A stretch of DNA of 64,000 nt. Source: Thermococcus sp. 4557. Lineage in GTDB: Archaea > Methanobacteriota_B > Thermococci > Thermococcales > Thermococcaceae. The notes beneath the pieces are model-generated. The model worked only from the letters and a program-made list of their open reading frames with translations. It did not search any database and was not told the origin of the DNA. This document shows, piece after piece, positions 9,034 through 40,349 of the stretch. The stretch covers positions 1 through 64,000 of the forward strand of contig NC_015865.1 in NCBI RefSeq assembly GCF_000221185.1, in the 5' to 3' direction. A program made the position numbers and the translations under genes. Each line of letters begins with the position of its first letter. Position 1 is the stretch's first letter.

Positions 9034-10290
9034 ATGAGAGCACTGGTTGGAACCGCCGTTGACTTCGAGTCGGCCAGAGAGAACGTCGCGGTCATAGTGG
9101 AAGACGGGTTCATCCGGGACGTCGTTCCCCGGGAAAGGGTCGGTGAATACGCCGTCGATGAAGTTTACGGGGGAGACGGCTACATAATCCTGCCAGGCCT
9201 GGTCAACGCCCACACCCACACCGCCATGTCGAAGTTCCGGGGCCTTGGTGAGGATGTGCCCATAGAGAGGTGGCTCAGTGATGTCATATGGCCCGCGGAG
9301 CTGGAGTGGGAACCAGAGGACGTTCGCCGCTGGGCGCTCCTTGGGATGGCTGAGGCGCTGGCCAACGGTTCGACGACGATAAACGACCACTACTTCTTCG
9401 CCGACGAAATAGCGAAGGCCGCCCGGGAGCTCGGGATAAGGGCCTTCATCGGCCAGACCGTTATGGATACGATTGACTTCCCCATAGCCGCGCCCGAGGA
9501 GGGCTTCAGGTTCTTTAAGGACTGGGTGGGGAAGGATGAGCTCGTGACCCCCACCCTCGCGCCCCACGCCACCAACACGGTGTCCCTTGAGCTGATGAGG
9601 GAAATCGGCGAGTTCGCCCGCGGTAGGAACGCCCTGATTCACGTTCACCTCTCCCAGAGCATGGGGGAGGTGCGGGAGGTCAAACACCGCTACGGCCTCT
9701 CTCCCGCGGAATACCTCGAAAGGGCCGGCGTACTTGGGGACAACCTTATCGGCGTCCACGGCATCTATCTGAGCGATTCAGAGGTTTCCCTCTACGCGAA
9801 AAGCGGTGCGACGCTCGTCCATTGCTCCCTGAGCATGGCAAAGCTTGAGGGAAGGATAGCCCCGATAATAGAACTCTTTGAGAGGGGAACGAACATTGCC
9901 CTCGGAAACGACTCCCCGAATCCGGTGGGCCTGATGGACATGTTCACGGAGATGCGCTTCGCGGCGGTTCTGAACAAGGTCTGGAGGAGAAGAACCGACG
10001 TCGCCTCTGCGAGGGAGGTTTTCCGCTGGGCCACGGTCGGGGGTGCAAATGCCCTCGGACTGAGGGCGGGCCTCATAAAGCCCGGCTACCTTGCGGATCT
10101 GGTCCTGATAAACGCCAGAAAGGCCCAGTTCCTCCCCGGGGAGAACCCGCACTCCCATGTGGTTTACTCGGCCCGGGGAAGCGATGTCGAGCTGGTCATG
10201 GTGAACGGAGAGGTCGTTTACAGAAACGGCCTGTTCACGAAACTTGGAAAAAGGATGGAGGATCTGTGGGCGGAGTTCAGACCTTCCTGA
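9034..10290 (+). CDS. Amidohydrolase, 5'-methylthioadenosine/S-adenosylhomocysteine deaminase type
   Basis: Metal-dependent deaminase of the amidohydrolase superfamily. The metal site is visible: H60 and H62 in NAHTHTAM, the histidine in IHVHLSQS, the histidine in GVHGIYL, and the aspartate in GNDSPNP. The family acts on MTA/SAH or related adenosine derivatives in the methionine cycle; exact substrate cannot be told from sequence. The open frame extends to 8989, but the ATG at 9034 has GGTGAG upstream and a TATA box at the right distance, giving 418 residues, a normal length. The 3' end overlaps the convergent NfeD gene by 14 bases. Confidence 0.85.
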
Positions 10291-10696
10291 CCATGAGCTT
10301 GACGCCGTCAACATTGACGACCTCAACGGTGTCGCCGATTCCGGGCTTCTCGTCTCCCTCGGCCAGCGCTATCCACCTATCTCCCTCAAGCTCGACGATG
10401 TAGTGGTCTTTTCCTATTTCAACCACCTTCCCGCGCTTGCCTTTCAGCTCGAAGGTGTACTTGCCCTTTCCGGCGTCCTGGACGTCCTTTCTTACGTAGC
10501 GGCTAACGATTATGTACGATACTACCGCCGCTATGAGGGCCGCGACGAAGCTCTCGGTGAAGTTCACCCCGAACCCCATCAGGAGCCCCATGACGACCAT
10601 CGCTATTCCGATCGGGGTTATGAACGCGGTAACCATCATGTCCAGGGCTATCACGAGGAGGCCGAGGATAAGAAGGGAAATCGGGAGCGCTTCCAT
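10277..10696 (-). CDS. Short NfeD-like membrane protein
   Basis: About 139 residues. Two to three membrane helices ([21 protein letters not shown] and [11 protein letters not shown], then [12 protein letters not shown]) are followed by a C-terminal OB-fold domain ([20 protein letters not shown]...[16 protein letters not shown]). This is the short NfeD form without the serine-protease domain. It lies 33 bases downstream of the stomatin-like gene, the usual pairing. Upstream in-frame starts are ATG 10708 and TTG 10711; GGTGGT at 10701-10706 (read on the minus strand) favours ATG 10696. Confidence 0.82.
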
Positions 10697-10728
10697 GCCC
10701 ACCACCATCAAAAATTAAGAAAAGGCCT

Positions 10729-11697
10729 TTAAGCCTTTTCCGGGTTCAAATCTGAGTTACCTTCACCAGACTCGGAGGGAGTCACTTCCCTCCCGCCATC
10801 GCCGCTGGAAGGTTCCGGCGTCTCAGGCATCGGGATGTCCCTCACCTTCTGGAGTATCCTCAGCAGTCCGATTAGGGACTCGGTGTCGTAGGGTACGATA
10901 AGGTTGCCCTGCCTTCCGAGTTCGGGGAGCTTCTCGATGTACTGGAGGGCGAGGTACTTCTCGTCGGCCATCGAGAGCGCCTCGAGGACCTTCCGTATTG
11001 CCTCGGCCTGACCCTCGGCGACGAGTATCTGCCTCTGCTTCTCACCCTCGGCCCGGAGTATGGCTGCCTGTTTTTCACCCTCGGCTTTCTTTATCTTGCT
11101 CTCCCTCTCACCCTCCGCGAGGAGTATCATGGCCCTCTTCTCACGCTCTGCCGTCATCTGCTTGGCCATCGCGTCCTGAATGTCCTTTGGCGGGTCTATG
11201 CGCTGTATCTCAACGCGGGTTATCTTGACACCCCAGCGGTCGGTTATCTTGTCAAGCTCCTCGCGCAGCTTGGCGTTGATTATGTCCCTGCCGCTGAGGG
11301 TTTCGTCGAGCTCCATCTCACCGATGATGGCACGGAGGTTGGTCTGGGCGAGCTTGATGATGGCCATCAGGAAGTTGCTGACGTTGTAAACGACCTTGAC
11401 GGGGTCGAGTATCTGGTAGTAAACGATGGCATCGACGGTGACGACGACGTTGTCCTTACAGATGACCTCCTGCGGCGGCACATCGACGACGTGCTCGCGC
11501 ATGTCCACGACCTTGACGCGCTCCATGAAGGGTATTATGAAGTGTATTCCCGGCTCCAGGATTCTGTTGAACTTTCCGAGCCTCTCGACGAGACCCTTCT
11601 GGTACGGGCGGATAACCTTCACGCTCAGCAGGAGCATTATCAAAAGGAACACTCCAATTACGATAAGCGCTGCTCCGGCAAAGGCCCCCATTACCAT
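10729..11697 (-). CDS. Stomatin/prohibitin-family (SPFH) membrane protein
   Basis: SPFH protein of 322 residues, first gene of the stomatin-NfeD pair. It has one N-terminal membrane helix (residues 5-28) and the SPFH core with typical stretches RPYQKGLVERLGKF and VVDMREHVVDVPPQEV. A charged helical region rich in Ala/Glu/Arg (AEGEKQAAILRAEGEKQRQIL) and a Pro/Ser/Glu tail follow. Such proteins form membrane scaffolds and can be substrates of NfeD-type proteases. ATG 11691 is also possible and has better spacing from GGAGG. Confidence 0.9.
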   Translation of the reverse strand: MVMGAFAGAALIVIGVFLLIMLLLSVKVIRPYQKGLVERLGKFNRILEPGIHFIIPFMERVKVVDMREHVVDVPPQEVICKDNVVVTVDAIVYYQILDPVKVVYNVSNFLMAIIKLAQTNLRAIIGEMELDETLSGRDIINAKLREELDKITDRWGVKITRVEIQRIDPPKDIQDAMAKQMTAEREKRAMILLAEGERESKIKKAEGEKQAAILRAEGEKQRQILVAEGQAEAIRKVLEALSMADEKYLALQYIEKLPELGRQGNLIVPYDTESLIGLLRILQKVRDIPMPETPEPSSGDGGREVTPSESGEGNSDLNPEKA

Positions 11698-11848: not shown

Positions 11849-13138
11849 CTATAGTCCTGTCATCTCCTTTATTGTGCTAATAATTCTATTTTTGGTACTC
11901 TGGTATTCCTCTTTAAGCTCAATTATCTTGTGAAGCTCTCTTTCGATGCTTTCGAGGAGTTCCACGGCCTCTTTCCTTTCCTTCTTCCTGCGTACCTTTT
12001 CGTTTGCGGTCTCTATCATCGACTTAAGCTCTTCGTAGACGGGCAAAGCCTCCTCGGGAAGTTCCGACGGCGAGATTTTTGAGTATTCTTTCCTGAGAAC
12101 TTTCAGGCGTTTTTTGGGAGGCAGCTTACTCAAGTCCATCTCGCTTTCTCCGGAATCCTCCACCTGGAACATTGTAAACGTGTCGGGAGGTAGCACAAGG
12201 AGGAGAACCGAGGGTAAAAGCGTCATAAGAACTCCAAAAATCATGATATCCCAATCATACAAGTTCCATCCCTCACAGATTATTAAGAAAAGTAAGAATG
12301 TGATGGGAAAAACTATAGTGGCATATTTTATTTTGGGGCTACGAACTGGGAGGATGGAGAAGGCGGGCATCATAAGCAGAATGTACGTGAGTTCATGCCA
12401 TCTCAAAGGACTTTGGGTGATATACAATACGAAAGCTAGGAATGAAACAATTAATAGGACTGATAAGGTCTTGGTGGACGATTTCAAAGCTTTCCAGTGA
12501 AGGACCTCCTCGATCATTGGTAGTTCCCAAGCCAAGAGCATCGAGGCAAATGAGATTATAAACTTTCCATTTGGAGGAAATTGAGGAGACGGTGGAAATA
12601 TCAATACGTGATATTTCATAATTGAGATGATGGTGAGCATCTGGAAAGCCAACGCAAAAAAGGCTAAAAGAATTGAGGCAATTTTCCTGATTTTCGAACC
12701 AATTCCCAGAATGTAACACGCTATAAAACCAAACATACCCATAAACGAAGCGAGGGGAATAACATGGCCTCCATATCTAGGCCATAATCCGCCTATAGGA
12801 GTAGAAAGTACATTCCAAAGTGCCAAAAGCATGGCTAAAAGTGGTCCAAAATACGAAGGGGAGTAATAGTAATACAGATGCCGTAATACATAAACTGTCA
12901 GTATGTTGATTATGACCAGTGCAAATATCGGTAGGTACCCCGAAGTGTTTTTTGCCCTGTCAGTGAGTTTGAGAATCGGAAAGATGAACATTAAAACAGT
13001 TGCCAAATAGAACATAAGGGACATCCAAGTCATGCCCCAACTTTTGAATTCTTTGAAAATCTCAAGTACTGTGAGGAAAATTAGGACGAAAAAATATCCA
13101 AGGACAACATTTTTTCGGTTCATCCGGAACCCCTCCAT
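11849..13138 (-). CDS. Polytopic membrane protein with cytoplasmic helical hairpin domain
   Basis: Not a recognised family. 429 residues with about nine or ten hydrophobic segments over residues 8-310. The C-terminal tail of about 105 residues is charged and helical: ISPSELPEEALPVYEEL, a hairpin, then ELKEEYQSTKNRIISTI. That tail matches in pattern the tails of the proteins at 14902, 16798 and 22314, so it is probably a shared docking or oligomerisation domain. The gene starts three bases after the AAA gene stop with GGAGGAT before the ATG, and is the last gene of the cluster. The membrane part is distinctly more AT-rich than its neighbours, hinting at separate origin. Confidence 0.75.
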   Translation of the reverse strand: MEGFRMNRKNVVLGYFFVLIFLTVLEIFKEFKSWGMTWMSLMFYLATVLMFIFPILKLTDRAKNTSGYLPIFALVIINILTVYVLRHLYYYYSPSYFGPLLAMLLALWNVLSTPIGGLWPRYGGHVIPLASFMGMFGFIACYILGIGSKIRKIASILLAFFALAFQMLTIISIMKYHVLIFPPSPQFPPNGKFIISFASMLLAWELPMIEEVLHWKALKSSTKTLSVLLIVSFLAFVLYITQSPLRWHELTYILLMMPAFSILPVRSPKIKYATIVFPITFLLFLIICEGWNLYDWDIMIFGVLMTLLPSVLLLVLPPDTFTMFQVEDSGESEMDLSKLPPKKRLKVLRKEYSKISPSELPEEALPVYEELKSMIETANEKVRRKKERKEAVELLESIERELHKIIELKEEYQSTKNRIISTIKEMTGL

Positions 13139-13141
13139 TTT

Positions 13142-14284
13142 TTATCCTCCAAACTCCTCCGCCCACTTCTCGTACCTCTCGATCTCCTTCCTCGTCAGTG
13201 GGGACTTGATCCTCTTGAAGGCCTTCTCGAAATCTCTCATTTCAAGAGGCCGGGTTCTCAGTTCGATTTCACCGTCAAGTATCTCAGAAACGGCTTCTAG
13301 GTCCTCCAGTTCCGGGTTTTCCTCAACCAGCATACTCTGAATGGCCAGGTTGCACAGGTTCGCTACCTCCCTCCCTGAGTACAGCCGTCTAACGCTCTCC
13401 TCTGCTATCGCATCGAGGTCGAGCCTGCTTATGTCCAAACCCTTGGTGTGTATCCTCACAATCTCTTTGATGGCCTCCTTATCGGGTAGTGGCACGTAAA
13501 TCCTCAGTGGAAACCTTGAGAGTAGCGCCTCGTCAAGGTCCCAGGGGGTGTTGGTGGATGCGAGTGTAAGGACGAATCCCTCCGCTCTTCCCTTAAAGCC
13601 ATCTATCTCCGACAGGAGGGTCGCCAGGGTTCTCCGCGTTGTCTCGTGAACGCTCTCTCTTTTCAGACTGAGTGCATCAACCTCATCGATGAAAACTATA
13701 CTGGGAGCCTTCTCCCTCGCCAGTCTGTACAAAGCCGTTATCAGCTTTGAGGATTCACCATAGTACTTGCTGAGTACGTCCGAAGCTTTGACGTTGAAGA
13801 ACGTGGCCTTTAAACTCCCCGCCGCCGCGGAAGCGAGGAGTGTCTTACCTGTGCCGGGTGGGCCGAAGAGGAGAATTCCTTTCCACGGCTTTATGGCATC
13901 GGGTCTCTTTGCGAAGGCTATGGCAACGTTCCGTGCCAGCAATCTCTTGACTTCCTCCAGCCCCCCTATGTCCTTCCACGTGACGGTAGAACTGGCTATC
14001 AGCCCCTCCACCTGCGCCATGTATTCATCGGTGGATGCTCCCCCTTTGATGCTGCCCCCTGTTCCACGGGGTGATGGAGTTTTGAGTTCCTCCGCGGCCT
14101 CTTCCCAGCGCCTTGCCTTCTCCAGGTAGAATTCTCTCCTGTCAGGCATCTTGTCCGCCAGTGCCTTCAGAATCCCTGCGCACTTGAGGGCGTACTCTCT
14201 GGCTCCTTCTATGTTGCCCCTCGCCAGCTCCGCCTCATACTCCTTTCTGCATTCCTCAAAAAGAGAAAGATAGAGGGACTTCAT
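13142..14284 (-). CDS. Vps4/CdvC-like AAA ATPase with MIT-like N-terminal domain
   Basis: 380 residues. Residues 1-70 are a three-helix, MIT-like segment (KEYEAELARGNIEGAREYALKC...). A linker follows, then one AAA domain: Walker A GPPGTGKT near residue 144, Walker B IVFIDEVDAL, sensor 1 LTLASTNTPWDLDEA, arginine-finger region LLSRFPLRIYVPLP. The end, RKEIERYEKWAEEFGG, resembles the C-terminal helix of Vps4 enzymes. Vps4 disassembles ESCRT-III polymers. The gene directly follows the Snf7-like gene (TGA then G then ATG), the same pairing as cdvB-cdvC in crenarchaea. Close paralogue of the gene at 29997. Substrate and role are inferred. Confidence 0.82.
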   Translation of the reverse strand: MKSLYLSLFEECRKEYEAELARGNIEGAREYALKCAGILKALADKMPDRREFYLEKARRWEEAAEELKTPSPRGTGGSIKGGASTDEYMAQVEGLIASSTVTWKDIGGLEEVKRLLARNVAIAFAKRPDAIKPWKGILLFGPPGTGKTLLASAAAGSLKATFFNVKASDVLSKYYGESSKLITALYRLAREKAPSIVFIDEVDALSLKRESVHETTRRTLATLLSEIDGFKGRAEGFVLTLASTNTPWDLDEALLSRFPLRIYVPLPDKEAIKEIVRIHTKGLDISRLDLDAIAEESVRRLYSGREVANLCNLAIQSMLVEENPELEDLEAVSEILDGEIELRTRPLEMRDFEKAFKRIKSPLTRKEIERYEKWAEEFGG

Positions 14285-14285
14285 C

Positions 14286-14852
14286 TCAACCCCTCATCAT
14301 ATCCTCTATCTGTTTCAGTCTGGTTTTGGGTTCTAGGTCGGAGGATGCGGAGGCCTCAAATAACGATGCGGTCTCCTCGAGGCTCTCCGCGTCGAACTCA
14401 CCGGTTAAGATGCTCTCACTTGTAAGGTCGAGCATCGTGCTGAGGGCCTCGTCAAGACCCTCCACTTTTGTCATGGCCTTTTCAAACTCAACCTGCATCT
14501 TGGCTACGTCCTCGGCCCCGGGCCCTTCCGCTATGCTCTCCACGATGTCCCTGCTAAACTGAATGAAGTTTGCAGAGACCTTCACCAGTTCTCTCTGAAT
14601 CTCGGCTTCCTCCATGAGGAGCAGCAGCCTCTTGGCCTGCTTTATCCGCTCCTCAAGGGCGAGATACTTCATGGCGCTCCTCTTCAGCAGTGCTTCATCG
14701 CCAAGCTTTGCTGCTTCCTTACCCTGGAGGAAAATTTTACGCTTCAGGTTTTCGAGGTTGTTTATGTACTGCTTCAGGGCCATTTTGGCCTTCCGCATAC
14801 GAACCTTGCGCTCGATTTCCTTTTCCTCTTTGGACTTCCAAAACCTCACCAT
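14286..14852 (-). CDS. Snf7/ESCRT-III-like coiled-coil protein
   Basis: 188 residues, entirely helical. The N-terminal half is strongly basic (KSKEEKEIERKVRMRKAKMA, LKRKIFLQGKEAAKLGD), followed by a long hairpin and an acidic C-terminal half (DLTSESILTGEFDAESLEE). This charge layout and the GKEAAKLGDEALLKRSAMKY stretch resemble the alpha1-alpha2 hairpin of ESCRT-III/CHMP proteins. The tail LEPKTRLKQIEDMMRG could be an MIT-interacting motif. The ribosome site GGAGG lies seven bases before the ATG. The Vps4-like AAA gene follows immediately. Homology is judged by eye and needs a profile search. Confidence 0.65.
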   Translation of the reverse strand: MVRFWKSKEEKEIERKVRMRKAKMALKQYINNLENLKRKIFLQGKEAAKLGDEALLKRSAMKYLALEERIKQAKRLLLLMEEAEIQRELVKVSANFIQFSRDIVESIAEGPGAEDVAKMQVEFEKAMTKVEGLDEALSTMLDLTSESILTGEFDAESLEETASLFEASASSDLEPKTRLKQIEDMMRG

Positions 14853-14901: not shown

Positions 14902-16776
14902 TTAGGCATCGGACGATTCATTAGTTTCTCCAGATGAGGAAATTCCCTGTGAAAGCATCTTTCTAATGTCTTCCTCCAGGTTTCTTTTGAGGTCCTGGTA
15001 GTCTTGCATTGTCCTTTTCAATTCTCTGAGCTTTATCCACAGCTCTTTAATTGCCTTCTCTCTTTCACTGCCTTTGGTCTTTTTCAATGTGTGTAAAGCG
15101 GCCTCGGCCTCCCGGTATGTTACAACGGCTTCTTCGGGGAGCATGGAGGGACGGATCGAGTTGAATTCTCTCTCCAGGAGCTTTGTCTCGTTTGGCTTCC
15201 CGTGGAGCTTTATTCCCACCATCAGGCCTAGAACCATAACTGCAGCGCCGATTATGTAAATGCTACTCGGCGTGCCTTCCGTAGCGTTTCCGTAATTTGG
15301 GCTGATGGTGGCTTCTTCCATTCCCTCCGTTTCTGAAGCTTCTTTGGTTTCTTTTACCGTTTCCAGGGGTGTTAATTCCACGTTTATCTCCTTTGTCTCT
15401 CCTGCTTCAATTTTGATGGACGTTTTGTAGGCCTGGTATCCATCGTCCTCTACCGTTACTTCGTAGGCTCCCGCCTGTACTTTGTACTCTGTTATGGGGG
15501 TGTTGCCGATGTACGTGCCATCAAGATACACCCTGGCCCCGCTCGGCTCAGATGTCACCGTTACGTACCCTACGGGTGTAAGGCTCGCGGAAATCCCGGT
15601 CGTTTCACCTGCCCTAACTTCAATTCTGTCCTCGTACTCTTCGTATCCATCAAGGGTCACCCTGACGGTGTATGTTCCTGGGTCTAATTGGAGCTCAAGC
15701 GGTGTTCTCCCAGCGTTTTCGTCGTTGATGTATACCTCTGCTCCGGAGGGTGTTGATGTCACCTTTAATACTCCCCACGATGGGGTAAGCTGGGCATGTA
15801 TCAGGTATTCCTGACCTGGAACCACTGTTATTCTCTTTTCATATACCTGATATTTGGGCAGTTTTACCTCAATCCAATACTTTCCGGGGTTTAGACTGTA
15901 CCCGTCTATGGGTGTTTTGCCGATGTAGGTTCCATTTACGTATACCTCCGCGCCGGAGGGTTCTGATTTTATTCTGAGCTTGCCCGGTTTTGGTTTAAGA
16001 TTGACGGAGATTTCCTTAGTGTCACTGGCCTTTACGGTGACCGTTGTTGAGTACTCAAAATATCCATCCAGGACGAGTTTTACCCGGTATGTTCCAGGGG
16101 GAAGTTCGTAGGTTATGGGAGTTCTACCGATGTAATCTCCGTCTACGTAAACTTTGGCGTTTGATGGTGTTGATTCAACCTTGAGTTTCCCCACTATCCT
16201 CTCTAGACTTGCGTATAGGGTCTTGTATTCCCCCGTCTCGAGTACGACCGTTGTGTTGTAGGGCCTGTATCCCTCCTTAGCAACTACAATTTCGTGGGTT
16301 CCGGAGGGGAGTTCAACGGTGAGGGGAGTCTTTCCCCGATATTCGCCGTCTATATAAACGGCTGCATCACTGGGGTCTGACGATATCCTCAGGGTGGCCG
16401 TGTCGCTAACTACGGTATAGCCATCGTCGAGGTAAAAGCGCAGCCTGACTGACACGTCTCCCGAGATCCCCATGAACACGTCGAGAGGCTCCACGTCAAA
16501 TCCGTGGGAGGTGTCTCCATACAGCCGTTCTTTCAGATGAACCGTGTACATCACGGGACTTCCCTGGGGTAGGGCCTGGAACTTGAATATGACCTTCTCG
16601 TTGATGAGGTCCACGTCATAAATTGTAATTCTGTAGAGATCCTCACCCGTGTACGTGTTTCTTATTATCAATGCGTCCCCGACATGATACCACTCTTCCA
16701 TTGTTGTTTCGGGGGATACAGGTGGAAGGAACAGGGAGGAGAGCACGATTAACAGTACCACCATACCCTTTTTCAT
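14902..16776 (-). CDS. Exported protein with five PEGA repeats, membrane helix and cytoplasmic helical tail
   Basis: About 624 residues. A signal peptide (KKGMVVLLIVLSSLFLPPVSP) precedes a beta domain. Then come five PEGA repeats of about 70 residues, each opening with a strand and PSxAxVYxDG (PSDAAVYIDG, PSNAKVYVDG, PSGAEVYVNG, PSGAEVYIND, PSGARVYLDG). A membrane helix near residue 510 (IYIIGAAVMVLGLMVGI) leads to a charged tail with SMLPEEAVVTYREAE and a helical hairpin shared with three neighbours. PEGA domains often bind cell-wall or S-layer material. ATG 16794 is possible, but GGTGAAGGCG precedes ATG 16776. Likely an envelope sensor or anchor in the signalling cluster. Confidence 0.82.
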   Translation of the reverse strand: MKKGMVVLLIVLSSLFLPPVSPETTMEEWYHVGDALIIRNTYTGEDLYRITIYDVDLINEKVIFKFQALPQGSPVMYTVHLKERLYGDTSHGFDVEPLDVFMGISGDVSVRLRFYLDDGYTVVSDTATLRISSDPSDAAVYIDGEYRGKTPLTVELPSGTHEIVVAKEGYRPYNTTVVLETGEYKTLYASLERIVGKLKVESTPSNAKVYVDGDYIGRTPITYELPPGTYRVKLVLDGYFEYSTTVTVKASDTKEISVNLKPKPGKLRIKSEPSGAEVYVNGTYIGKTPIDGYSLNPGKYWIEVKLPKYQVYEKRITVVPGQEYLIHAQLTPSWGVLKVTSTPSGAEVYINDENAGRTPLELQLDPGTYTVRVTLDGYEEYEDRIEVRAGETTGISASLTPVGYVTVTSEPSGARVYLDGTYIGNTPITEYKVQAGAYEVTVEDDGYQAYKTSIKIEAGETKEINVELTPLETVKETKEASETEGMEEATISPNYGNATEGTPSSIYIIGAAVMVLGLMVGIKLHGKPNETKLLEREFNSIRPSMLPEEAVVTYREAEAALHTLKKTKGSEREKAIKELWIKLRELKRTMQDYQDLKRNLEEDIRKMLSQGISSSGETNESSDA

Positions 16777-16797
16777 CGCCTTCACCGTTGCCATAGT

Positions 16798-17466
16798 TTA
16801 ACGGCCACCGGAGTACGTATCAAATGTGAGGACACGAACTCCATCTGTTCCCAAAGTTCCGCCATCCACCTCTCTTCCGATCACTGTCCCGATGTTTCTC
16901 CTCCTGGCCAGCTCAACGAGGACATCCGTCACGACGGTTGGCACTATCAGAACCCTCCCCGTAACCGGCTGGGTGTTGAGCCTTACCACCATAGAAACCA
17001 CACTATCTATCGCCACGGGCTGAAATTCCTCATCGAGTAGCACCGCAACATGATTCTTGCGGGCGTGGTCAATGTATCTTAGAATGTGAACTTTCCCATC
17101 GTTTTCACCTTTTTGCCGTGCCCCTATAGCCGAAGAACTTGGGGCGGGCACTGTCACTTCCCCGAGGCCTGGAGTTTCCAGGAGCTCCGATATTGCGCCC
17201 GTGACGGTTTTTTTCAGTGCTATGTACTCTCCTGTCAGAACCTCAAGCCGCGAGATCTCCACCTCGATGCTTTCGAGGATCTTTGAGGCTCCTTCCTTGT
17301 TGCCCCTCCTGATGAGCTTCCCGGCGTGTTGAATGAGTGCCAACGCCCCTATGAGACCCTCTTTGCCCTCCTCAGGAACCCTGTCCTTCAGAGAATCGAG
17401 GCGCCCCCTCAGCTCCCGGAGCCTTTTCTCTTCCTTCGATGGCAAAATGGAGGAAAAAATGCCCAT
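16798..17466 (-). CDS. Soluble protein: helical hairpin domain plus DnaG-C-terminus-like domain
   Basis: About 222 residues, no membrane helix. Residues 10-110 carry the PEEG-type helical hairpin seen in neighbours (SLKDRVPEEGKEGLIGAL ... EVLTGEYIALKKTVTGAI). The C-terminal ~95 residues form an alternating beta/alpha domain (HVAVLLDEEFQPVAIDS ... GRVLIVPTVVTDVLVELAR ... IGTVIGREVDG ... RVLTFDTY). Its pattern recalls the C-terminal domain of archaeal DnaG primase-like proteins, without any of the Toprim catalytic half. GTG 17475 is in frame, but GGGGTG at about 17472-17477 suits ATG 17466. It lies between PP2C and PEGA genes with 12 and 21 base gaps. Function unknown. Confidence 0.72.
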   Translation of the reverse strand: MGIFSSILPSKEEKRLRELRGRLDSLKDRVPEEGKEGLIGALALIQHAGKLIRRGNKEGASKILESIEVEISRLEVLTGEYIALKKTVTGAISELLETPGLGEVTVPAPSSSAIGARQKGENDGKVHILRYIDHARKNHVAVLLDEEFQPVAIDSVVSMVVRLNTQPVTGRVLIVPTVVTDVLVELARRRNIGTVIGREVDGGTLGTDGVRVLTFDTYSGGR

Positions 17467-17478
17467 TACGGGCACCCC

Positions 17479-20247
17479 TCAGTGGCGGTAGAGGACCACC
17501 GTTATGTTGTCGTCGCTTCCGTAACCGTAGGCCTTTTCCACCAGTATCTTCACGGCTTCTTCGAGGGACGGGGCGGCGAGGACGGTTCTGGCTATCTCGC
17601 TATCCGGAAGGGCATCGCTGAGGCCGTCAGAGCACAGGAGCAGGTAATCGCCCTTCTGAATGCCCACTTTCTTTATGTCGTTCCTTCCAATGGTTATGGT
17701 CTGGGAAATGCCCAGGGCCTTAGTTATAACGTTCTTCTGAGGGTGTTTTCTGGCCTCCTCAGGCGTTATCTCGCCCTTGTCTATGAGCTCCTGGACGAGA
17801 GAATGATCTTTAGTAATCCTCTTTATGCTTCCATCGGGCCGTATCAGGTAGGTTCTGCTGTCACCTATGTTGGCAACCGTCGCTGTGTTGCCCCGGACTA
17901 TAGCCGCAGTCAGGGTGGTTCCCATGTTGTACCACTCCGGGTGCGCCGGGTCGTGTCCCATCTGGTAGATTACCTCGTTGGCCCTCTTTATGGCCTCCCT
18001 GAAGACCTCCTCGGGGTCGGCGAACTTGTTGTGCTTCAGAGTTTCCTTGAGTATCTCGGTTGCTTTTTTGCTCGCCACCTCGCCTGCGAGATGCCCACCC
18101 ATACCATCGGCGACCGCCAGGAGTATGTTGCCGCCTACCTTCTCGACAATGTAGGCATCCTCGTTGTTCTGCCTGCGTCCTATGTAGCTCTTGGCCGCCA
18201 CGTGCTTTGTTATGTCCACGTTAAGGGTCTGCTTGTAGGGAGCTATCCTGAGGTTGAGCACCTCGTATTCTGACAGGAACTTCTCCTTCAGGGTGAGGGG
18301 CCTTCTGTAATCACCCCTCTCAAACGCCGCCCGGGCCTCACTAACGAGCCTCCTCATCTCACTCAGCTTCCTTGTTACACCTTCATCCGTCAGCAGGTTG
18401 AGCGATTCGAGTTCCTTCTGGAGGCGTTCTATGATATCTTCCATGATTTCAACCGCTTCCCTCGCCCGATCCACGCGCTTCTTGTCCTGGTACTTGGTGT
18501 ATCCGATGTATCCCCCGTAGCCCAGGCCAGCCAGGAGGAGCAGTGCAATCACTGCCAGGAGAACCTTGTTCCAGGTGTATCTGCTCTCGGCATCATCAAT
18601 CGACTTGCTGGCGTCGTTCAGCAAGCTCTCCACTTGGGCCACACTGGCGGTGGGTTGTCCCTGACCCCCTGTCTCTTTGCTGATGACTGATATTGCGGAT
18701 TCAAACTCGTTCACGGCCGCTATGAGGCCATTCGCATCCTGGGCGTTCTGAGCTTTGAGGTACGCTTTTTGAGCTTTAAGTTGCATGTTCAAAACTATTA
18801 GGCTTGCATTAACCTGATTGAGTTTTTCCTCGGCTTCTCTTAGCTTGTCGTCCGCGCTTATGATCGATATGGCCGGCTTATTCTTTCTGGCCTTCTCGAG
18901 TCTCTTCTGAACCTGCTCGTACCTCTTTTCCAGTTCTTTGAGCTTCTTCTCGTCCACATTGGTCCCATTTGCACCGAGCTTCTTCTTCATATGCTCCAGG
19001 ATTATCTCCTTGATAGCATTGAACTTGCCGCCTTCAATGACTTCAACCGCCAGCGAGATGGCGTTATCGTAGTTCTCCTTTGAGAGCGCCGTCTTAGCAT
19101 TCTTGAGCTTGGATTCGAGGGGCGGTATTATGGTGTTGTAGTAATCGGAATATTTTGGTAGAAGTTTTCCATAATCTCTCTTCAGTTGCCTTATTTCTTC
19201 GTCAGCTTTCCCGACGAGGCACTCCGCTAGGGGGTTTTTGACGTTTTCCAGGGCGTTGAAAGCGGACTTCGCGTATGATATTGCTTCCGCTATCTTATTC
19301 TGGGACAAGCTCTCCTTCGCTCGGTCTAGCTGTTGATTGGCGGTTTTCAAGTCGTTCTCGAGGGTTTTCTGACCGGTCGTTCCGGTGCAGTATTTAGTGA
19401 TGTAGCCGTTGTATGTGTTGTAATCCGCTTGAAGTGCGTTCAGCTTGCCAGACACTATCTCCCTGATGCGGCTCATGACTTCGTTAATGGTGGTGTTGGC
19501 CTGGGAAACGTTGCCCGCGTTCAACAGTTTCCTGGCAAATGTAATATTGCCTTCAATGCTGCTTAGGGTCTTGTTGTCCACGTCGAGGAACTTCCTGTTT
19601 TCCTTGATCGCCTGGAGCGCGCTTTCGGCGGAGGTAATCTTCTTCTCGACCTCGTTTGAAGCGGCGGGGCACTTTTCAATATCGCCCTTAATCTTGTCCA
19701 GCTTCCATCTAACCTCCAAAAGCTTGGACAGGGCGTCTGAGAATTTTGAATGATCATTGTTGCCTTCGCTTATCAGCTTGTCTATCTGATCAAGGAGCGA
19801 TTTTACCTCATTGAGGTCGCTTTGGATCCCTTTTGAAACCTTCTTATCGCTGCACGCTTTAGCATCCTTTGAGAGCTGGGTGTACTCTTTATTGAGGTCC
19901 TTCGTGATGTTGTTCATAAGCTCCTTAAGGGGGTTCCAGAAGTAGTTTATCAGGGTCGCGTTGGCGCTCTCTAAATCCCCGCTGTTCAGCTGCTCTCTTG
20001 CAGTGGTTATGCTCTGGTTCAGCTTTTGGATCTCCTTCACTGACACGTTCAGGGCGGTTTTGTTCTCGTTCAGGGTTTTCAGAATCTGGCTGGCAATGTT
20101 TATGTCGTCGTTCAGTTTTTCCACGTCACTTGAAGCCTGCGGGGTTGAATCCTGGGTCGTCTGTCCGGTGTCCGCGGCAGTTACGGGCACGCTAAGCACC
20201 ATAATGATGAGGAGGAATATTGAAACAACACGCCTCAGGTTAACCAT
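17479..20247 (-). CDS. Receptor-type PP2C phosphatase with long extracytoplasmic coiled coil
   Basis: 922 residues. Signal peptide (RVVSIFLLIIMVLSVPVTAA), then about 540 residues of outside coiled coil (SDVEKLNDDINIASQILKTL and similar), a membrane helix near 570-592 (VLLAVIALLLLAGLGYGGYIGY), a short inside helical region, and a complete PP2C domain from about residue 680. PP2C metal and catalytic motifs are present: NNEDAY, VADGMGGH, MGTTLTAA, IGDSRTY, DHSLVQ, LLCSDGLSD, DNITVV. It should remove phosphate from Ser/Thr residues inside the cell under control of an outside signal. The gene lies nine bases downstream of a kinase gene, so kinase and phosphatase are made together. Confidence 0.92.
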   Translation of the reverse strand: MVNLRRVVSIFLLIIMVLSVPVTAADTGQTTQDSTPQASSDVEKLNDDINIASQILKTLNENKTALNVSVKEIQKLNQSITTAREQLNSGDLESANATLINYFWNPLKELMNNITKDLNKEYTQLSKDAKACSDKKVSKGIQSDLNEVKSLLDQIDKLISEGNNDHSKFSDALSKLLEVRWKLDKIKGDIEKCPAASNEVEKKITSAESALQAIKENRKFLDVDNKTLSSIEGNITFARKLLNAGNVSQANTTINEVMSRIREIVSGKLNALQADYNTYNGYITKYCTGTTGQKTLENDLKTANQQLDRAKESLSQNKIAEAISYAKSAFNALENVKNPLAECLVGKADEEIRQLKRDYGKLLPKYSDYYNTIIPPLESKLKNAKTALSKENYDNAISLAVEVIEGGKFNAIKEIILEHMKKKLGANGTNVDEKKLKELEKRYEQVQKRLEKARKNKPAISIISADDKLREAEEKLNQVNASLIVLNMQLKAQKAYLKAQNAQDANGLIAAVNEFESAISVISKETGGQGQPTASVAQVESLLNDASKSIDDAESRYTWNKVLLAVIALLLLAGLGYGGYIGYTKYQDKKRVDRAREAVEIMEDIIERLQKELESLNLLTDEGVTRKLSEMRRLVSEARAAFERGDYRRPLTLKEKFLSEYEVLNLRIAPYKQTLNVDITKHVAAKSYIGRRQNNEDAYIVEKVGGNILLAVADGMGGHLAGEVASKKATEILKETLKHNKFADPEEVFREAIKRANEVIYQMGHDPAHPEWYNMGTTLTAAIVRGNTATVANIGDSRTYLIRPDGSIKRITKDHSLVQELIDKGEITPEEARKHPQKNVITKALGISQTITIGRNDIKKVGIQKGDYLLLCSDGLSDALPDSEIARTVLAAPSLEEAVKILVEKAYGYGSDDNITVVLYRH

Positions 20248-20256
20248 CTCTATCCC

Positions 20257-22224
20257 TCACATCCATTTCTTCAATACGGTCTCCACCCTTCTAAACGTGT
20301 CTTCAGTTGGGCGGGCGTTCTCGGATGCCATGAGCGATATCTGCGTGTGGAGATCCTTGAGTTCCGGATAGCCGGTTTCGTGGTAGAGCGCATCGAGGTC
20401 CGCCGCGAGCTTTGCCAGCTCGGATGAGACCTCCTGAGCAAAACCGTCTACAATCGCCTTGATGCGCAGGTAGGCGTTCTCAGCGAGGATCTTTGCCCTC
20501 TCCCGCGAGCTGACGCTGTCTCTGACGTGGACCCCCATGCGTATCAGAACTTCCTTGATGTCGTTCTGCAGCTCCCTCACCGTCTGGTAGCGCTTCTCCG
20601 GGTCCTTTTCGAGCATCTTCATTACTATCTCATCAAAGACCCTCGCCTCGGGGTTGAGGTATGAGGGGGGCTCGGGGGTCTTGTTCAGTATGTTGTTGAT
20701 GATGGTTCCCTCGTACTCGGCCGTGAAGGGGTGCTTGCCGGTCAGTATCTCGTAGAAGACGATGCCGAGCTGGAAGATGTCGCTCCTGTGGTCGATGTGC
20801 TCCGGATCCTTTATTTGCTCGGGGGAGGAGTAGAGTATGGTCTTGTGCCTGACAAGAGAGGATTTTCTTGTGGCTCTGGATGCGAGCCTTGCAAGGCCCC
20901 AGTCGCCGAGTTTAACCTGCTCCAGGCTTCCGAATATGAGTATGTTGCTCGGCTTTATGTCCCTGTGGTATATCTTCTGGGAGTGGGCGTGGTGGAGGGC
21001 GCGGCCTATCTCGAATATTATTCTCCCTGCCACGGAGGGGCTTATGGGTTTCTTGACCTTCTCCAGGTTGTTGCTGGCCAGCTCCATCTCAAGGAAGCCG
21101 AGCCTCGGGTCGGCGCGGTGAACCTTGACGATGTTCTCGTGGTCGAGCTTTTGGGCCGCCGCGAACTCACGCATGAACGAGGAGGTGGATTCCTTGTCCA
21201 GGTATTTGAGCACCTTGAGTGCCACCTTGTGTCCCTGTGGATTCTTGGCCTCGTAAACGTAGGAGAACGCGCCCTCTCCGATGGTTCTTATTATCCTGTA
21301 CCTTTCCTTTATCTGCTCCAGCCTCGTCTCGAAGTTCACCGACAGGTCGAATGTCTCCTCCTCGACGACTTCCTCCTGGAGGACGAAGCTGTCCTTGTCC
21401 GGGATCTGGAGGCGCCAGCCCTTGGGAACCTCCCCAGTGTAGAGGAGCTCGGTGATTCCGTAGAGGTTGCTGTCGCAGGCTTTTATCAGCTCGTTTATCA
21501 TTGCGACTTCCTCTACCAGGTCGTGCTTCTTCGCCATCTCCAGGAGGTTCTCCAGGACTTTCTTCGCGCTCTCGAGGCTCTTCTTGGCGGAGAACCAGTC
21601 CTCCTTCCTGTACATCTCGGCGGCCTCTATCATCATGTCCGCTACCGCCTGGAGCTGGAGCATTATTATCTTCCTGTGGGCAACTATGAGGGCGTCGAAC
21701 CTGTCGTCTTCCATCGGAACCTCAACGGTTTCGAGCTCCCTAATCGCATCCCAGAGCTCCTGCTCGGTTTGAGCGTCCTTTATCTTCTGGTATATCCTCC
21801 TGAAGTTGGCTATCTTCCTCAGGTTCTCGGTGGTCTCTATGGTGTTCCTGAGCTTTTGAATCAGCTCCTCCTGGGTACCATCTTCGACCTCCAAAACCGT
21901 AAGGGCCTGGTGATATTTCTCCAGCGACTCCGCGAACTTTGATATTGCCTCCTCAAAGTTCCTCGCCTTTAGAAGCTTCTCTCCGTCATGCCTCAGACGG
22001 AGGGCGTTGCTTAGAAGGAAATCCCTATCTGGAAGGGCTGCTATCAGGGCTTTTTTGACCATCTCAAGCGCGGTGCCGGTGTCATCGGCGTTCAGCGCGT
22101 TTAACGCGTTCTGAAGATAATCCTTAGCCTGCTCGATGTTCGAGCCGGGTAATCCAAGCGTCATGTAATTTGAAATTTTCGGGAGATACGACTCGATCTC
22201 CCTCAGGTCAGCTATCCTGCCCAA
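20257..22224 (-). CDS. Soluble Ser/Thr protein kinase with N-terminal TPR-like helical region
   Basis: About 655 residues, no membrane helix. The first ~300 residues are helical repeats of TPR-like type (ARNFEEAISKFAESLEKYHQAL). The Hanks-type kinase domain follows: glycine loop GEGAFSYVYEA, VALKVLK lysine, HRDIKPSN catalytic loop, DWG instead of DFG, SSPEQ. A helical C-terminal domain ends it. GTG 22254 is in frame, but the TATA box at 22258-22268 predicts a transcript start near 22236. GGGGGTG lies just before TTG 22224, so the TTG is preferred. First gene of a run with the PP2C gene nine bases downstream. Confidence 0.88.
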   Translation of the reverse strand: MGRIADLREIESYLPKISNYMTLGLPGSNIEQAKDYLQNALNALNADDTGTALEMVKKALIAALPDRDFLLSNALRLRHDGEKLLKARNFEEAISKFAESLEKYHQALTVLEVEDGTQEELIQKLRNTIETTENLRKIANFRRIYQKIKDAQTEQELWDAIRELETVEVPMEDDRFDALIVAHRKIIMLQLQAVADMMIEAAEMYRKEDWFSAKKSLESAKKVLENLLEMAKKHDLVEEVAMINELIKACDSNLYGITELLYTGEVPKGWRLQIPDKDSFVLQEEVVEEETFDLSVNFETRLEQIKERYRIIRTIGEGAFSYVYEAKNPQGHKVALKVLKYLDKESTSSFMREFAAAQKLDHENIVKVHRADPRLGFLEMELASNNLEKVKKPISPSVAGRIIFEIGRALHHAHSQKIYHRDIKPSNILIFGSLEQVKLGDWGLARLASRATRKSSLVRHKTILYSSPEQIKDPEHIDHRSDIFQLGIVFYEILTGKHPFTAEYEGTIINNILNKTPEPPSYLNPEARVFDEIVMKMLEKDPEKRYQTVRELQNDIKEVLIRMGVHVRDSVSSRERAKILAENAYLRIKAIVDGFAQEVSSELAKLAADLDALYHETGYPELKDLHTQISLMASENARPTEDTFRRVETVLKKWM

Positions 22225-22257
22225 CCCCAACACCCCCAACGCGGGGCATAACACCCG

Positions 22258-22313: not shown

Positions 22314-24365
22314 TTACTTCTCATTGCTCCCTTCCCCCTCTGAAGGCGCCTCAGCTGCCGGCTGGTTCAGCAGGCTCATAATGTCCCTGCTGATCCTATC
22401 TTTCATGCTCCTGTACTGGCCTTTCAGCTCTTTGATACGTGCTACCTCGGCAGCAACCTCCTCTCTGAGCCTTGAGAGGCTGCCTCTGTCCCCCCTGCGG
22501 TAGGCTTCTTCTATCGCCCTTCTTTTTCCCTCCAACCCGTTTAGTATCTCACTGGCTTCTTCGGGGATGTTTTCCCTCCTCACGGAGTCTATCGTGGCCA
22601 GTAGCTCTTTGTAGCTCTTTCTGAAGTTGTACTTCCGGTATGTCATAACTAGGAGAAGCAGTACTATCAGGACGGCTATACCTGCCGCCACCCTGATGCC
22701 GTAGTAAACCGGATCCATCTGCATGTCCGGCGTTAGCTCCCTTATCTCGCCTGGACCCAGTGAGACAGTGGTGGTGTAGTCCTTCTTCCCCTCCTTTTTG
22801 AGCATCACCGCATAGCTTCCCGGCTGAATGGAGATGGACGTCGGTGCGGTTCCGTAGTAGGTTCCGTCCACGTAAACCTCCGCCCCTGAGGGTCCGTTTA
22901 TTTCGAGCTTCGCCGGACAGGGCTCCAGGCGGGCCGCCACCGATACCGGTGCGGGCGAGTTTATTGACACCTCTTCCCGGTACTCCCCGCAGAACCCGTC
23001 GGCCCTCACCGTGACGTTGTGATCCCCTGCGGGAATCGTGTAGTTCAGAAGGGGCGTCTTGCCCACGGGTATCCCGTCTATGACAACCTGGGCACCATCT
23101 ACGTTGGAGTAGACGTTTATCGTACCGTTGGCAAGGGGCAGGGAAATGTACTCTTTGACGACATCACCGGAGGAAACGCTCACCTCGACGACCTTCGTGT
23201 GGTAGTACTCCCTCGCGACCTTTACAGTGTAAGTTCCTGGGAGGACTGTGAATGCCGTAGGAGTCTCCCCTATCTCGGTGTACTCACCGCTCTCCATCAG
23301 GTACACCCTAGCGTCGCTGGGGTCGGTCAGTATCTGGATCACTCCCGGAACCCGGTAGAGCGCAACCGTGCCGTCCTTGGTCCCAACCGCCAGGTAGTTC
23401 CCGTCCTGAGAGAGTGCCACTGCGTAGACCGGAGAACCAAGGTTTTCCTTCCAGAGCAGGTAGCCTTTCTCGTTGAAGACGTAGACGTTCCCTCCCGTGT
23501 CGCCCACCGCGATTACCCTGCCCGTTGGGGTGATATCGACGTCAAAAGCCGGCGCGTCCAGCTTGTACCTCCACACGAACTCCCCGGAGGGCCGGTAGAG
23601 ATAGACGTAGTAATTCCCCGAGCCGGTCCACTTTCCGCTGGGATCGAGGTGGAGTCCCGTCACGGCAGCGTAGTACTTCTCCGATATGGCCGTGCCCACG
23701 ACGGCATCGTCGAACTCCCTGGTGGACTTCAGGAACGTCCCCGAGAATAGGAAGAGCTTGCTGTACTCGTTGTCGTCCCTCCGGTAGAACCACGGGGAGT
23801 GCGACACCACCAGGTAGTTTCCGTAGGTGTCCACCTCAGGCAGATCAACGCCCACGAGGTTCGTGGATATCCTCGAGCCGGTGTGGCTGAAGCGTATTAT
23901 CTTCCCCTCGCTCCCGACGTATATCCTGTCCTGGCCCGCAGACACCGATGAGAAGAATTCTTTGGTCTGTGAGGTGTATGTCCAGAGCACGTGCTTTCTG
24001 TCGTCCAGGTAGATTATCTTCCCGTACTCCGGGGAACCGTCCCTGTTCGTGTCGTAGCCAACCGCGGCCACGATGTTCTTGCCATCCTTGGCTATGTCAA
24101 GGGACGCTATGAAGCCCCCGGTCAGGTAGTCCCATATCGGCCTCCCATCCCAGCTGAAGTAGTATATCCTTCCGTTCTTGCCTCCAGCTACCACGTACTG
24201 GCCGTTTGGTCCCACTTTGATAGCGTGAACCTCGGTGTTGACTTTGTACGTCCATTCCGGTGTTATCTGCGGTGCAGAGGCCTTCACGTGAGCTGTTCCT
24301 GGGGCGGACATCAGTAGCAGGAACATCACGATAACAATGACCGTCTTCCACTTAGCGGCCACCAT
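22314..24365 (-). CDS. Exported beta-propeller plus three-PEGA protein with membrane helix and cytoplasmic hairpin
   Basis: 683 residues. Signal peptide (KTVIVIVMFLLLMSAPGTAH), a WD40/PQQ-like beta-propeller over about residues 30-345 with repeats such as GPNGQYVVAGGKNGRIYYF and SQDGNYLAVGTKDGTVALY, then three PEGA-type repeats (PSDARVYLMESG, DGAQVVIDG, PSGAEVYVDG). A membrane helix near 560 (RVAAGIAVLIVLLLLVMTY) leads to an inside tail with RRENIPEEASEILNGLEG and a hairpin like those of the proteins at 11849, 14902 and 16798. Probably an envelope sensor. Sixty bases separate it from both neighbours. Confidence 0.84.
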   Translation of the reverse strand: MVAAKWKTVIVIVMFLLLMSAPGTAHVKASAPQITPEWTYKVNTEVHAIKVGPNGQYVVAGGKNGRIYYFSWDGRPIWDYLTGGFIASLDIAKDGKNIVAAVGYDTNRDGSPEYGKIIYLDDRKHVLWTYTSQTKEFFSSVSAGQDRIYVGSEGKIIRFSHTGSRISTNLVGVDLPEVDTYGNYLVVSHSPWFYRRDDNEYSKLFLFSGTFLKSTREFDDAVVGTAISEKYYAAVTGLHLDPSGKWTGSGNYYVYLYRPSGEFVWRYKLDAPAFDVDITPTGRVIAVGDTGGNVYVFNEKGYLLWKENLGSPVYAVALSQDGNYLAVGTKDGTVALYRVPGVIQILTDPSDARVYLMESGEYTEIGETPTAFTVLPGTYTVKVAREYYHTKVVEVSVSSGDVVKEYISLPLANGTINVYSNVDGAQVVIDGIPVGKTPLLNYTIPAGDHNVTVRADGFCGEYREEVSINSPAPVSVAARLEPCPAKLEINGPSGAEVYVDGTYYGTAPTSISIQPGSYAVMLKKEGKKDYTTTVSLGPGEIRELTPDMQMDPVYYGIRVAAGIAVLIVLLLLVMTYRKYNFRKSYKELLATIDSVRRENIPEEASEILNGLEGKRRAIEEAYRRGDRGSLSRLREEVAAEVARIKELKGQYRSMKDRISRDIMSLLNQPAAEAPSEGEGSNEK

Positions 24366-27400: not shown

Positions 27401-27437
27401 AAATCAGACTTGCCTTGAATTTCGATGCTGCTGTCAT
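24426..27437 (-). CDS. Receptor Ser/Thr kinase with extracytoplasmic beta-propeller; non-RD kinase
   Basis: About 1003 residues. Signal peptide 1-29, outside propeller about 31-400 with WxxxY blade motifs (WAKAYSNIDPEG, WTRVYASPGGRD), a CxxC pair (ECPMCRV), membrane helix about 439-457, then kinase domain about 497-760. Kinase motifs are GEGGFAKVFKV, VAALKIPR, YHLDLKPEN, DWG, SAPEQ. The HRD arginine is leucine, so activation-loop control differs from classic kinases. After the kinase come a helical domain (REGIPIGKSTIDELRVLL) and a C-terminal ~100-residue domain (RIEVPGYGPVEYVV ... RKRGKLSVIKDRK) not found in the other five. ATG 27437 overlaps the PP2C stop (ATGA); GTG 27443 is also open. Confidence 0.9.
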   Translation of the reverse strand: MTAASKFKASLIFSLILTLLMASLPQAAAEPWAKAYSNIDPEGTVSVEYIGNDIVLLGNTEQGVVVARIGENGEVVWSKLVESKYSFIGKVLARGPEGSIIAGGTVGDGRGVWIIKLDGNGNVEWTRVYASPGGRDLVDASVADDGSVFGLIELDTPWEYLILKLDPSGNLEWVYRYRGVYDLKLLKVKALENGYILLAGNKGKSLAVAMISAGGVVMWGKVYGIYPGTKLADVARTDDGIILAGSVESDLGVKGLLVKLKPNGAVEFARTYSHEGAKLSIERVILGANDLVLVGTATRIFDSGDVVVLVTDETGEIRTHRIYTAPVGGRVLDASLTGETLTVAMRSYLNMDKPHVTLLTLDIGAMPKECPMCRVSNISGVQASISTSENRFLQLDPPSVPPLIPDSTEVKVSEFSLAVVGSVILESEEASTGKTTSWNMVLLALGLSAVAVFGIFTLGRRKKKSGGKTKSQQKEDGTRNTPRDKSLLFPEELLGKYEPLEFLGEGGFAKVFKVKRREDGKVAALKIPRIDEKTSKGFLKEVSAWLHLNHPNIVRLHDADILPVPYLEMEFVEGIEVNGTRVRDLGAYPKPVGEKRALELIRGIASGLAHAHSKGIYHLDLKPENVLLKGDMTPKITDWGLAKIGASPAVPTTAESLTLLYSAPEQLNPGVHGGTDARTDIYQLGLIFYELLTGKLPYEGSSKTAIVASLLGGSAKTLPPSHFSGALAKYDGIFEKLLAKRKEDRYQSVEEFLHDLELVERLEKEKEAIEREIEKTRTTMMTTSGEELARLKRRLTEQLSRNALLHAQLNDKAGLIGALEELKGLSREYKAEIEGAIEQLELMMREGIPIGKSTIDELRVLLDRVKLEVESETVSGKREPKRRAGITPTITTAGGGGRRQRVDGRIEVPGYGPVEYVVRDEEFEGDPKETLGEMVEYYLKHREEIDEMIKRETGVSDVPRFTRFSIQKKEFRLYAENVHGYRRLGFKITRKRGKLSVIKDRKR

Positions 27438-28180
27438 TTCCACACCACCACCGTCACGTTGTCCCTTGTGACGGGCAGGGCCTCTTCGATCAGCCTTCTA
27501 GTTATCTCCTCCGCGCTCCTGCCCTGTGCGGCTATCCCGACTATTCTTTCTTCGTCCACGTAGTCATGAAGCCCGTCGGAGCTGAGCAGGAGAACGTCCC
27601 CGTGCCTCAGCTTCCATTCGTAAAAATCAACCTCAAATTTGGCCCCGAGGGCCCTCGTTATGATGTTCCGCATCGGGTGCCTCCTCGCTTCATCGGGGGT
27701 TATCTCACCTCTATCAACGAGCTCCTGGACGAGTGAGTGGTCCTTCGTCCTGGCGATGATTCTTCCGTTCCTTATCAGATACGCTCTGCTGTCCCCGGTA
27801 TTGGCTATGAGAACCCTTCCTGGGGAAACGAGGGCGGACACAAGGGTCGTCCCCATTCCTTCCCTCTCTCCCGTGGCGTTCTCCAGTATTCTGGAGTGTG
27901 CCAGCTCGTACGCTTTCCTGAGCGTTATCCGGGTGAGATACTGGGGAGCGCCAGGTTCGTACTCCTGGAGAAGCGTCTCTTTCAGAACCTCTATTGCAAT
28001 CCCGGAAGCCACCTCGCCGGAGCTATGGCCCCCAAGCCCATCGGCCACCGCCAGGAGATACGCGTCGGGCAGTTTCAGGATTAAAAAGCTGTCCTCGTTG
28101 TTGTATCTTCCCCCAACGTGGCTTATGCCGGATAAAAATGGAAGAAAAACTGCCATCGTTCCCCCATTGGACTCGGCCAT
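27434..28180 (-). CDS. Soluble PP2C-family Ser/Thr phosphatase
   Basis: 248 residues, a bare PP2C catalytic domain without membrane segment. Metal and catalytic motifs: NNEDSF, VADGLGGHSSGE, MGTTLVSA, NTGDSRAY, DHSLVQELVDRGEITPDEA, LLLSSDGLHDY, DNVTVV. It is sandwiched between two kinase genes with overlaps at both ends: its ATG overlaps the upstream kinase stop (TAATG), and its stop overlaps the next kinase start (ATGA). This argues for equal production of kinase and antagonist. It is closely related to the PP2C domain of the protein at 17479. Confidence 0.93.
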   Translation of the reverse strand: MAESNGGTMAVFLPFLSGISHVGGRYNNEDSFLILKLPDAYLLAVADGLGGHSSGEVASGIAIEVLKETLLQEYEPGAPQYLTRITLRKAYELAHSRILENATGEREGMGTTLVSALVSPGRVLIANTGDSRAYLIRNGRIIARTKDHSLVQELVDRGEITPDEARRHPMRNIITRALGAKFEVDFYEWKLRHGDVLLLSSDGLHDYVDEERIVGIAAQGRSAEEITRRLIEEALPVTRDNVTVVVWK

Positions 28181-38464: not shown

Positions 38465-38500
38465 CCTACACACCTCCAACACGTAAAAAGTGAAACTAAA

Positions 38501-40348: not shown

Positions 40349-40349
40349 C

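Follow-up and report, generated by a model that had tools for sequence, protein, structure and literature searches.

Do two adjacent genes of the hyperthermophilic archaeon Thermococcus sp. 4557, one for a small coiled-coil protein and one for an AAA ATPase, form an ESCRT-type pair, and what would such a pair be for? An initial annotation of the window studied here (the whole stretch analysed, 64,000 nucleotides of contig NC_015865.1) likened the two genes to cdvB and cdvC. We call the small protein SNF7a and the ATPase VPS4a; coordinates are collected in Table 1.

Results

Order and linkage of the SNF7a-VPS4a pair

Both reading frames lie on the minus strand exactly where the initial annotation placed them, and a single base (14285) separates the SNF7a stop from the VPS4a start. 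We searched 94 Thermococcales species and found VPS4a in 11 genomes, in 12 copies. All 12 lie directly downstream of an SNF7a orthologue, nine with spacing identical to that in the window and three with about 17 bases. Because every VPS4a gene sits right behind SNF7a, we conclude that the arrangement is not due to chance. A Vps4 gene right behind SNF7a is nevertheless not a general rule among relatives, since in many of their compact loci SNF7a lies behind the phosphatase gene and Vps4 behind the kinase gene. Nor is the pair the sole ESCRT-type set within the window, which also holds a second Vps4, VPS4b, and tandem ESCRT-III-like genes, SNF7b and SNF7c. The pair itself belongs to a same-strand gene run with gaps of 1 to 49 bases, leading from 22254 down to 11849 in the order STK665, PP2C922, p225, PEGA630, SNF7a, VPS4a, TM429.

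Table 1. Positions of the genes, domains and motif discussed in the text
Feature	Description	Positions	Strand	Basis
TM429	membrane protein, 3 bases behind VPS4a	11849-13138	-	shared C-terminal helical domain
TM429, residues 344-428	shared domain	11852-12109	-	
VPS4a	Vps4-type AAA ATPase, 380 aa	13142-14284	-	ORF, ATG start; Pfam; tree
VPS4a, residues 1-70	MIT-like N-terminal three-helix bundle	14075-14284	-	AlphaFold2 (pLDDT 82); Foldseek
SNF7a	ESCRT-III-like (Snf7/CdvB-like) protein, 188 aa	14286-14852	-	ORF, ATG start
SNF7a, residues 175-188	conserved tail, PKTRLKQIEDMMRG, MIM1-like candidate Vps4-binding motif	14289-14330	-	conservation, pattern match
PEGA630	five PEGA domains, transmembrane segment, shared C-terminal domain	14902-16794	-	Pfam; domain search
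PEGA630, residues 536-630	shared domain	14905-15189	-	
p225	shared helical domain and further C-terminal part	16798-17475	-	domain search
p225, residues 18-105	shared domain	17161-17424	-	
PP2C922	membrane protein, C-terminal PP2C phosphatase	17479-20247	-	Pfam PP2C 7.5e-21
STK665	Ser/Thr kinase	20257-22254	-	Pfam
WDPEGA683	beta-propeller and PEGA protein, shared C-terminal domain	22314-24365	-	Pfam; domain search
WDPEGA683, residues 586-682	shared domain	22317-22610	-	
PP2C248	core-cassette phosphatase	27434-28180	-	Pfam; synteny
VPS4b	Vps4 of core ('Main' type) cassette, 403 aa	29997-31208	-	AAA 2.1e-40, Vps4_C 4.2e-8; synteny; tree
STK531	core-cassette kinase	33491-35086	-	Pfam; synteny
SNF7b	second ESCRT-III-like gene, core	37254-37868	-	Pfam Snf7 E 0.026
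SNF7c	third ESCRT-III-like gene, core, SNF7b homologue	37865-38482	-	hhalign; weak CdvB match
CC626	helical, coiled-coil, globular, HTH-like C-terminus	38501-40381	-	Pfam HTH_DeoR E 0.014 at 571-616; synteny
p174		40350-40874	-	synteny

SNF7a resembles archaeal ESCRT-III proteins

The charge of SNF7a is distributed as first described, basic and then acidic (net +11 in residues 1-94, -14 in 95-188). Its best Pfam family is Snf7, with nearly the entire profile covered at an E-value of 0.0032. The window protein scores 17.6 bits, below the curated cut-off of 27.3; Sulfolobus acidocaldarius likewise lacks a Snf7 match above the Pfam cut-off. Snf7 is the only Pfam family matched by all 25 SNF7a relatives, with a best E-value of 4.5e-6.

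An AlphaFold2 model from 25 relatives (mean pLDDT 79) has helices at residues 8-50, 53-107, 113-150, 155-170 and 175-187. The hairpin that an ESCRT-III protein should have is present in this prediction, as alpha1-alpha2, together with an alpha3-alpha5 fold. Compared by Foldseek with 350,542 PDB chains, the model found archaeal ESCRT-III proteins (Sulfolobus CdvB and CdvB2) at ranks 1-9, with probabilities of 0.99-1.00. The E-values of these matches are weak to modest (0.02-0.09) and the TM score is 0.40, which we attribute to the hinged, open shape of SNF7a; BAR domains rank next. A search of solved structures with the SNF7a sequence profile gave no match. We conclude from sequence and predicted fold that SNF7a is ESCRT-III-like. 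Its profile did not align significantly with those of SNF7b and SNF7c in hhalign, so a recent origin of SNF7a by duplication of either is not demonstrated.

VPS4a is a Vps4-type ATPase with a predicted MIT domain

VPS4a matches Pfam AAA (5e-38) and Vps4_C (4.1e-8; 33.5 bits against a cut-off of 21.3), and so has the single AAA domain with Vps4_C expected of a Vps4/CdvC protein. Its motifs are intact: Walker A at residues 141-148, the Walker B DE at 200-201 and the pore-loop stretch KYYGES at 173-178. Against the NCBIfam CdvC equivalog it reaches 180 bits, where the cut-off is 650. These matches place VPS4a in the Vps4 family, outside the crenarchaeal CdvC equivalog.

At the N-terminus the Pfam MIT match is weak (E 0.043), and a search of the PDB by sequence gave no confirming match for this region. 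For the predicted bundle, Foldseek ranks two Sulfolobus Vps4 MIT domains first and second (2w2u and 2v6y); the bundle superposes on 2v6y with TM scores of 0.68/0.75 and 1.7 A over 67 columns. By its predicted fold, then, VPS4a carries an N-terminal MIT domain.

The last ~20-40 codons of VPS4a and VPS4b are nearly identical in this genome (13142-13265 against 29997-30120). Over VPS4a codons 361-380, 92% of bases and 18 of 20 third positions agree with VPS4b, while the VPS4a 3' end is only 65% identical to that of the orthologue in genome G017. The pattern indicates recent gene conversion between the two 3' ends.

A conserved C-terminal tail resembles MIM1

The initial annotation proposed that the SNF7a tail could be a MIT-interacting motif. 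Preceded by a variable linker, the C-terminus is conserved as [DE]LEPxxRLKxIExMM[KR], and the MIM1 consensus is [DE]xxLxxRLxxL[KR]. The tail shares with the MIM1 of eukaryotic Vps2/Did2-class proteins a C-terminal helix motif, an acidic start and RLxxI; it differs in that Pro replaces the first Leu and Glu the last basic residue, and the strict pattern does not match. A relaxed MIM1 pattern, chosen after the tail was seen, fits 26 of the 30 SNF7a tails and about 1.3% of shuffled tails. Coiled coils can mimic MIM1: SNF7c has a match to the strict pattern within its first helix, a place where no tail motif can lie.

We also looked in the SNF7a tail for MIM2, the proline-rich consensus of CdvB (PMC5840170), and on the window's SNF7b and SNF7c for a MIM1-like tail; both were absent. 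Comparable tails are found at the C-termini of ESCRT-III-like proteins from Methanothermococcus, a Methanococci MAG and Cuniculiplasma. AlphaFold2 assigns most of the tail's length a pLDDT below 50. The proposal is supported in part: the tail is a conserved, MIM1-like candidate for Vps4 binding.

The window holds a core cassette of known type

Altogether the window contains two Vps4 genes, three ESCRT-III-like genes, six kinases, two PP2C phosphatases and PEGA/propeller proteins. VPS4b is about 61-63% identical to VPS4a. Snf7 is matched by six of 11 SNF7b relatives (best 2.8e-4, Pfam); SNF7b and SNF7c align in hhalign at 99%, and the CdvB match of SNF7c is weak (E 1.1). By position and described architecture, CC626 would fit arCOG09748, and p174 is by position probably arCOG08177, a Cas2-like and TBP-fold protein (both PMC10936438). 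In relatives the compact cassette runs p174 - CC626 - SNF7c - SNF7b - kinase - Vps4 - PP2C - SNF7a; the Methanothermococcus order is p174 - CC626 - SNF7c - SNF7b - Vps4 - kinase - PP2C, without SNF7a. The locus also encodes a protein in which pentapeptide repeats are joined to an ion-channel domain (41172-42314); in genome G072 a relative makes up the C-terminal portion of a protein of 945 aa.

This kind of locus is already known, because the core cassette matches the 'Main' euryarchaeal ESCRT that Makarova et al. (2024, PMC10936438) reported in Thermococcales, Methanococcales and further groups. Common to both are Vps4, ESCRT-III-like genes, STK and PP2C, and probably also a helical/coiled-coil/wH protein and a second marker protein. 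The window differs in its two Vps4, three ESCRT-III-like and six kinase genes, in the separate SNF7a-VPS4a arm, and in PEGA/propeller proteins with a common unnamed domain.

Neighbours of the pair share a helical domain

That domain, about 85 residues long, helical and without a Pfam name, is common to TM429, PEGA630, p225 and WDPEGA683 (pairwise E 6e-8 to 1e-3). Against Pfam, TM429 gave no match and p225 no confident match. Giant PEGA proteins of relatives carry the domain as well (L080:8540-17653, L081:15472-19569). It occurs in 10 of the 94 genomes: nine of the 11 with VPS4a and one of the 83 others (Fisher 5e-10, the species not being independent). Profile comparison ruled out that the domain is a relative of MIT (1.5% probability). 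Separately, STK665 has a weak N-terminal MIT-like match (residues 81-146, E 0.015), through which the kinase could be recruited to ESCRT-III tails.

SPFH and NfeD genes (10277-11697) flank the locus. They are also found in genomes G018 and G042, where SNF7a is missing and the core runs straight into them; in G017, SPFH lies right behind VPS4a.

Distribution, Vps4 phylogeny and mobility

SNF7a is present in 30 of the 94 Thermococcales species and missing from 64; SNF7b is present in about 40. All 30 SNF7a genomes have a VPS4b-type Vps4 (Fisher 1.5e-17, again with species that are not independent). The core does not require SNF7a, since G018, G042 and G072 have the core and VPS4b but no SNF7a. 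Among 115 genomes of the phylum from outside the order, the only one with SNF7a was a MAG carrying the label Archaeoglobus (L097); misbinning or transfer may explain this case.

In a Vps4 tree, where we ignored two rows labelled thaumarchaeal Vps4 that are CDC48-like proteins, VPS4a forms one branch with the published 'solo' Thermococcales Vps4s (support 97/96), apart from VPS4b. The solo proteins are reported without other ESCRT components (PMC10936438); the VPS4a gene, by contrast, is preceded at a distance of one base by that of an ESCRT-III-like partner. The distribution of the pair, this tree and the direct joining of core and SPFH-NfeD genes in G018 and G042 lead us to regard SNF7a-VPS4a as a second, accessory arm of the ESCRT locus. 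The Methanothermococcus Vps4 (L099) branches within the Thermococcus VPS4b group (95/80), which hints at transfer between orders.

A 49-kb plasmid of Thermococcus peptonophilus (L233, NZ_CP014751.1, 17914-25817) carries the whole compact cassette, including an SNF7a, WP_062390961.1, annotated as hypothetical; this fits the patchy distribution. The plasmid cassette adjoins a heavy-metal P-type ATPase gene. A search of viral contigs gave no match.

Discussion

Pfam Snf7, AAA and Vps4_C matches, predicted folds nearest CdvB/CdvB2 and the Sulfolobus Vps4 MIT domain, and conserved linkage together support the first part of the initial annotation, an ESCRT-type pair. We consider it probable that SNF7a and VPS4a are the polymer subunit and the disassembly ATPase of an accessory arm of a kinase-linked euryarchaeal ESCRT. 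SNF7a would form polymers at the cytoplasmic side of the membrane, probably joined by the core proteins SNF7b and SNF7c. Its MIM1-like tail might recruit Vps4 through the MIT domain, and the ATPase ring would then pull SNF7a out, so that the polymer is remodelled or recycled. Since kinases and phosphatases share the gene run of SNF7a, phospho-regulated assembly is suggested, which the Ser/Thr kinases and PP2C phosphatases encoded here might gate. Since PEGA and propeller proteins have a domain in common, membrane placement or triggering is suggested too: these membrane proteins may place the assembly and the common helical domain may serve for docking. The machinery would probably serve to remodel the membrane locally, form vesicles or sort cargo, and not to divide the cell. 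In T. kodakarensis, disruption of any of three Vps4 homologues reportedly left vesicle output unchanged (unpublished, cited in PMC10117752), a result that speaks against a simple part in producing vesicles in bulk. Our best guess at the function is regulated membrane remodelling or cargo sorting.

Perhaps the pair serves cell division in the style of CdvB-CdvC? The parallel with crenarchaea is real, in that a small gene is followed by an ATPase gene and the predicted SNF7a and MIT folds match CdvB and CdvC best. It ends there: SNF7a has neither the MIM2 proline motif nor a winged helix, no CdvA-type gene was recognised when the locus genes were annotated, and the locus contains kinases and phosphatases. 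A division role is unlikely because the genome has three FtsZ-family genes and most relatives (64 of 94 for SNF7a) lack the pair; vesicles or sorting are also the published view for the clade. We therefore give this explanation very little credence, and the likeness to a cdvB-cdvC division pair, unlike the ESCRT assignment, is not upheld; the locus is a different, kinase-linked and published ESCRT type. Scarcely credible, too, is a reading in which the likeness to ESCRT arises from convergent helical hairpins, with VPS4a as an unfoldase of katanin/Vps4-like type and SNF7a as an unrelated adaptor built of coiled coil, such as a BAR-like one. The weak Foldseek E-values, the BAR domains next in rank and the failed alignment to SNF7b/c would suit such an adaptor, but Snf7 is the best family and the sole one matched by 25 of 25 relatives, nine archaeal ESCRT-III chains head the 350,542 compared, and Vps4 constantly accompanies SNF7a.

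A stress or defence module deserves somewhat more thought, although we find it improbable. Here a phospho-regulated sensor locus would guard or repair the membrane, with an ESCRT-like polymer as effector, and spread between strains on plasmids. Patchy distribution, the T. peptonophilus plasmid cassette and the variability of the PEGA/propeller proteins are in keeping with this, and the locus kinases match PADLOC kinase models. Those matches, however, seem to reflect the general resemblance among kinases and among AAA proteins; we found no gene specific to defence, and viral contigs gave no match. We continue to prefer the accessory arm of a kinase-linked ESCRT. An extended version of it is possible but doubtful: a two-arm, phospho-switched ESCRT, made of a partly plasmid-borne core and the SNF7a-VPS4a arm, in which PEGA/propeller receptors recruit the polymer through the shared domain. 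In that version, the solo Vps4s known from Pyrococcus and Thermococcus would be related to this arm and would have lost their partner.

The main texts of the literature we consulted held no description of the accessory arm, the docking-type shared domain or the link to orphan Vps4s. Apparently new are the pair as a second arm, VPS4a as sister to the solo Vps4s, the shared domain of ~85 aa and the plasmid cassette. A review describes Thermococcales as lacking ESCRT-III homologues and their vesicle formation as unexplained (PMC10117752); in contrast, we find ESCRT-III-like genes in 30 to about 40 of 94 species. Because some Thermococcus species are genetically tractable, a kinase-linked ESCRT becomes testable outside Sulfolobus and Asgard archaea. 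The VPS4a arm is a possible origin of the orphan Vps4 genes. The locus may encode a eukaryote-like membrane machine switched by signals, and its shared domain and second Vps4 give a practical entry point for asking how signals might be coupled to ESCRT polymers.
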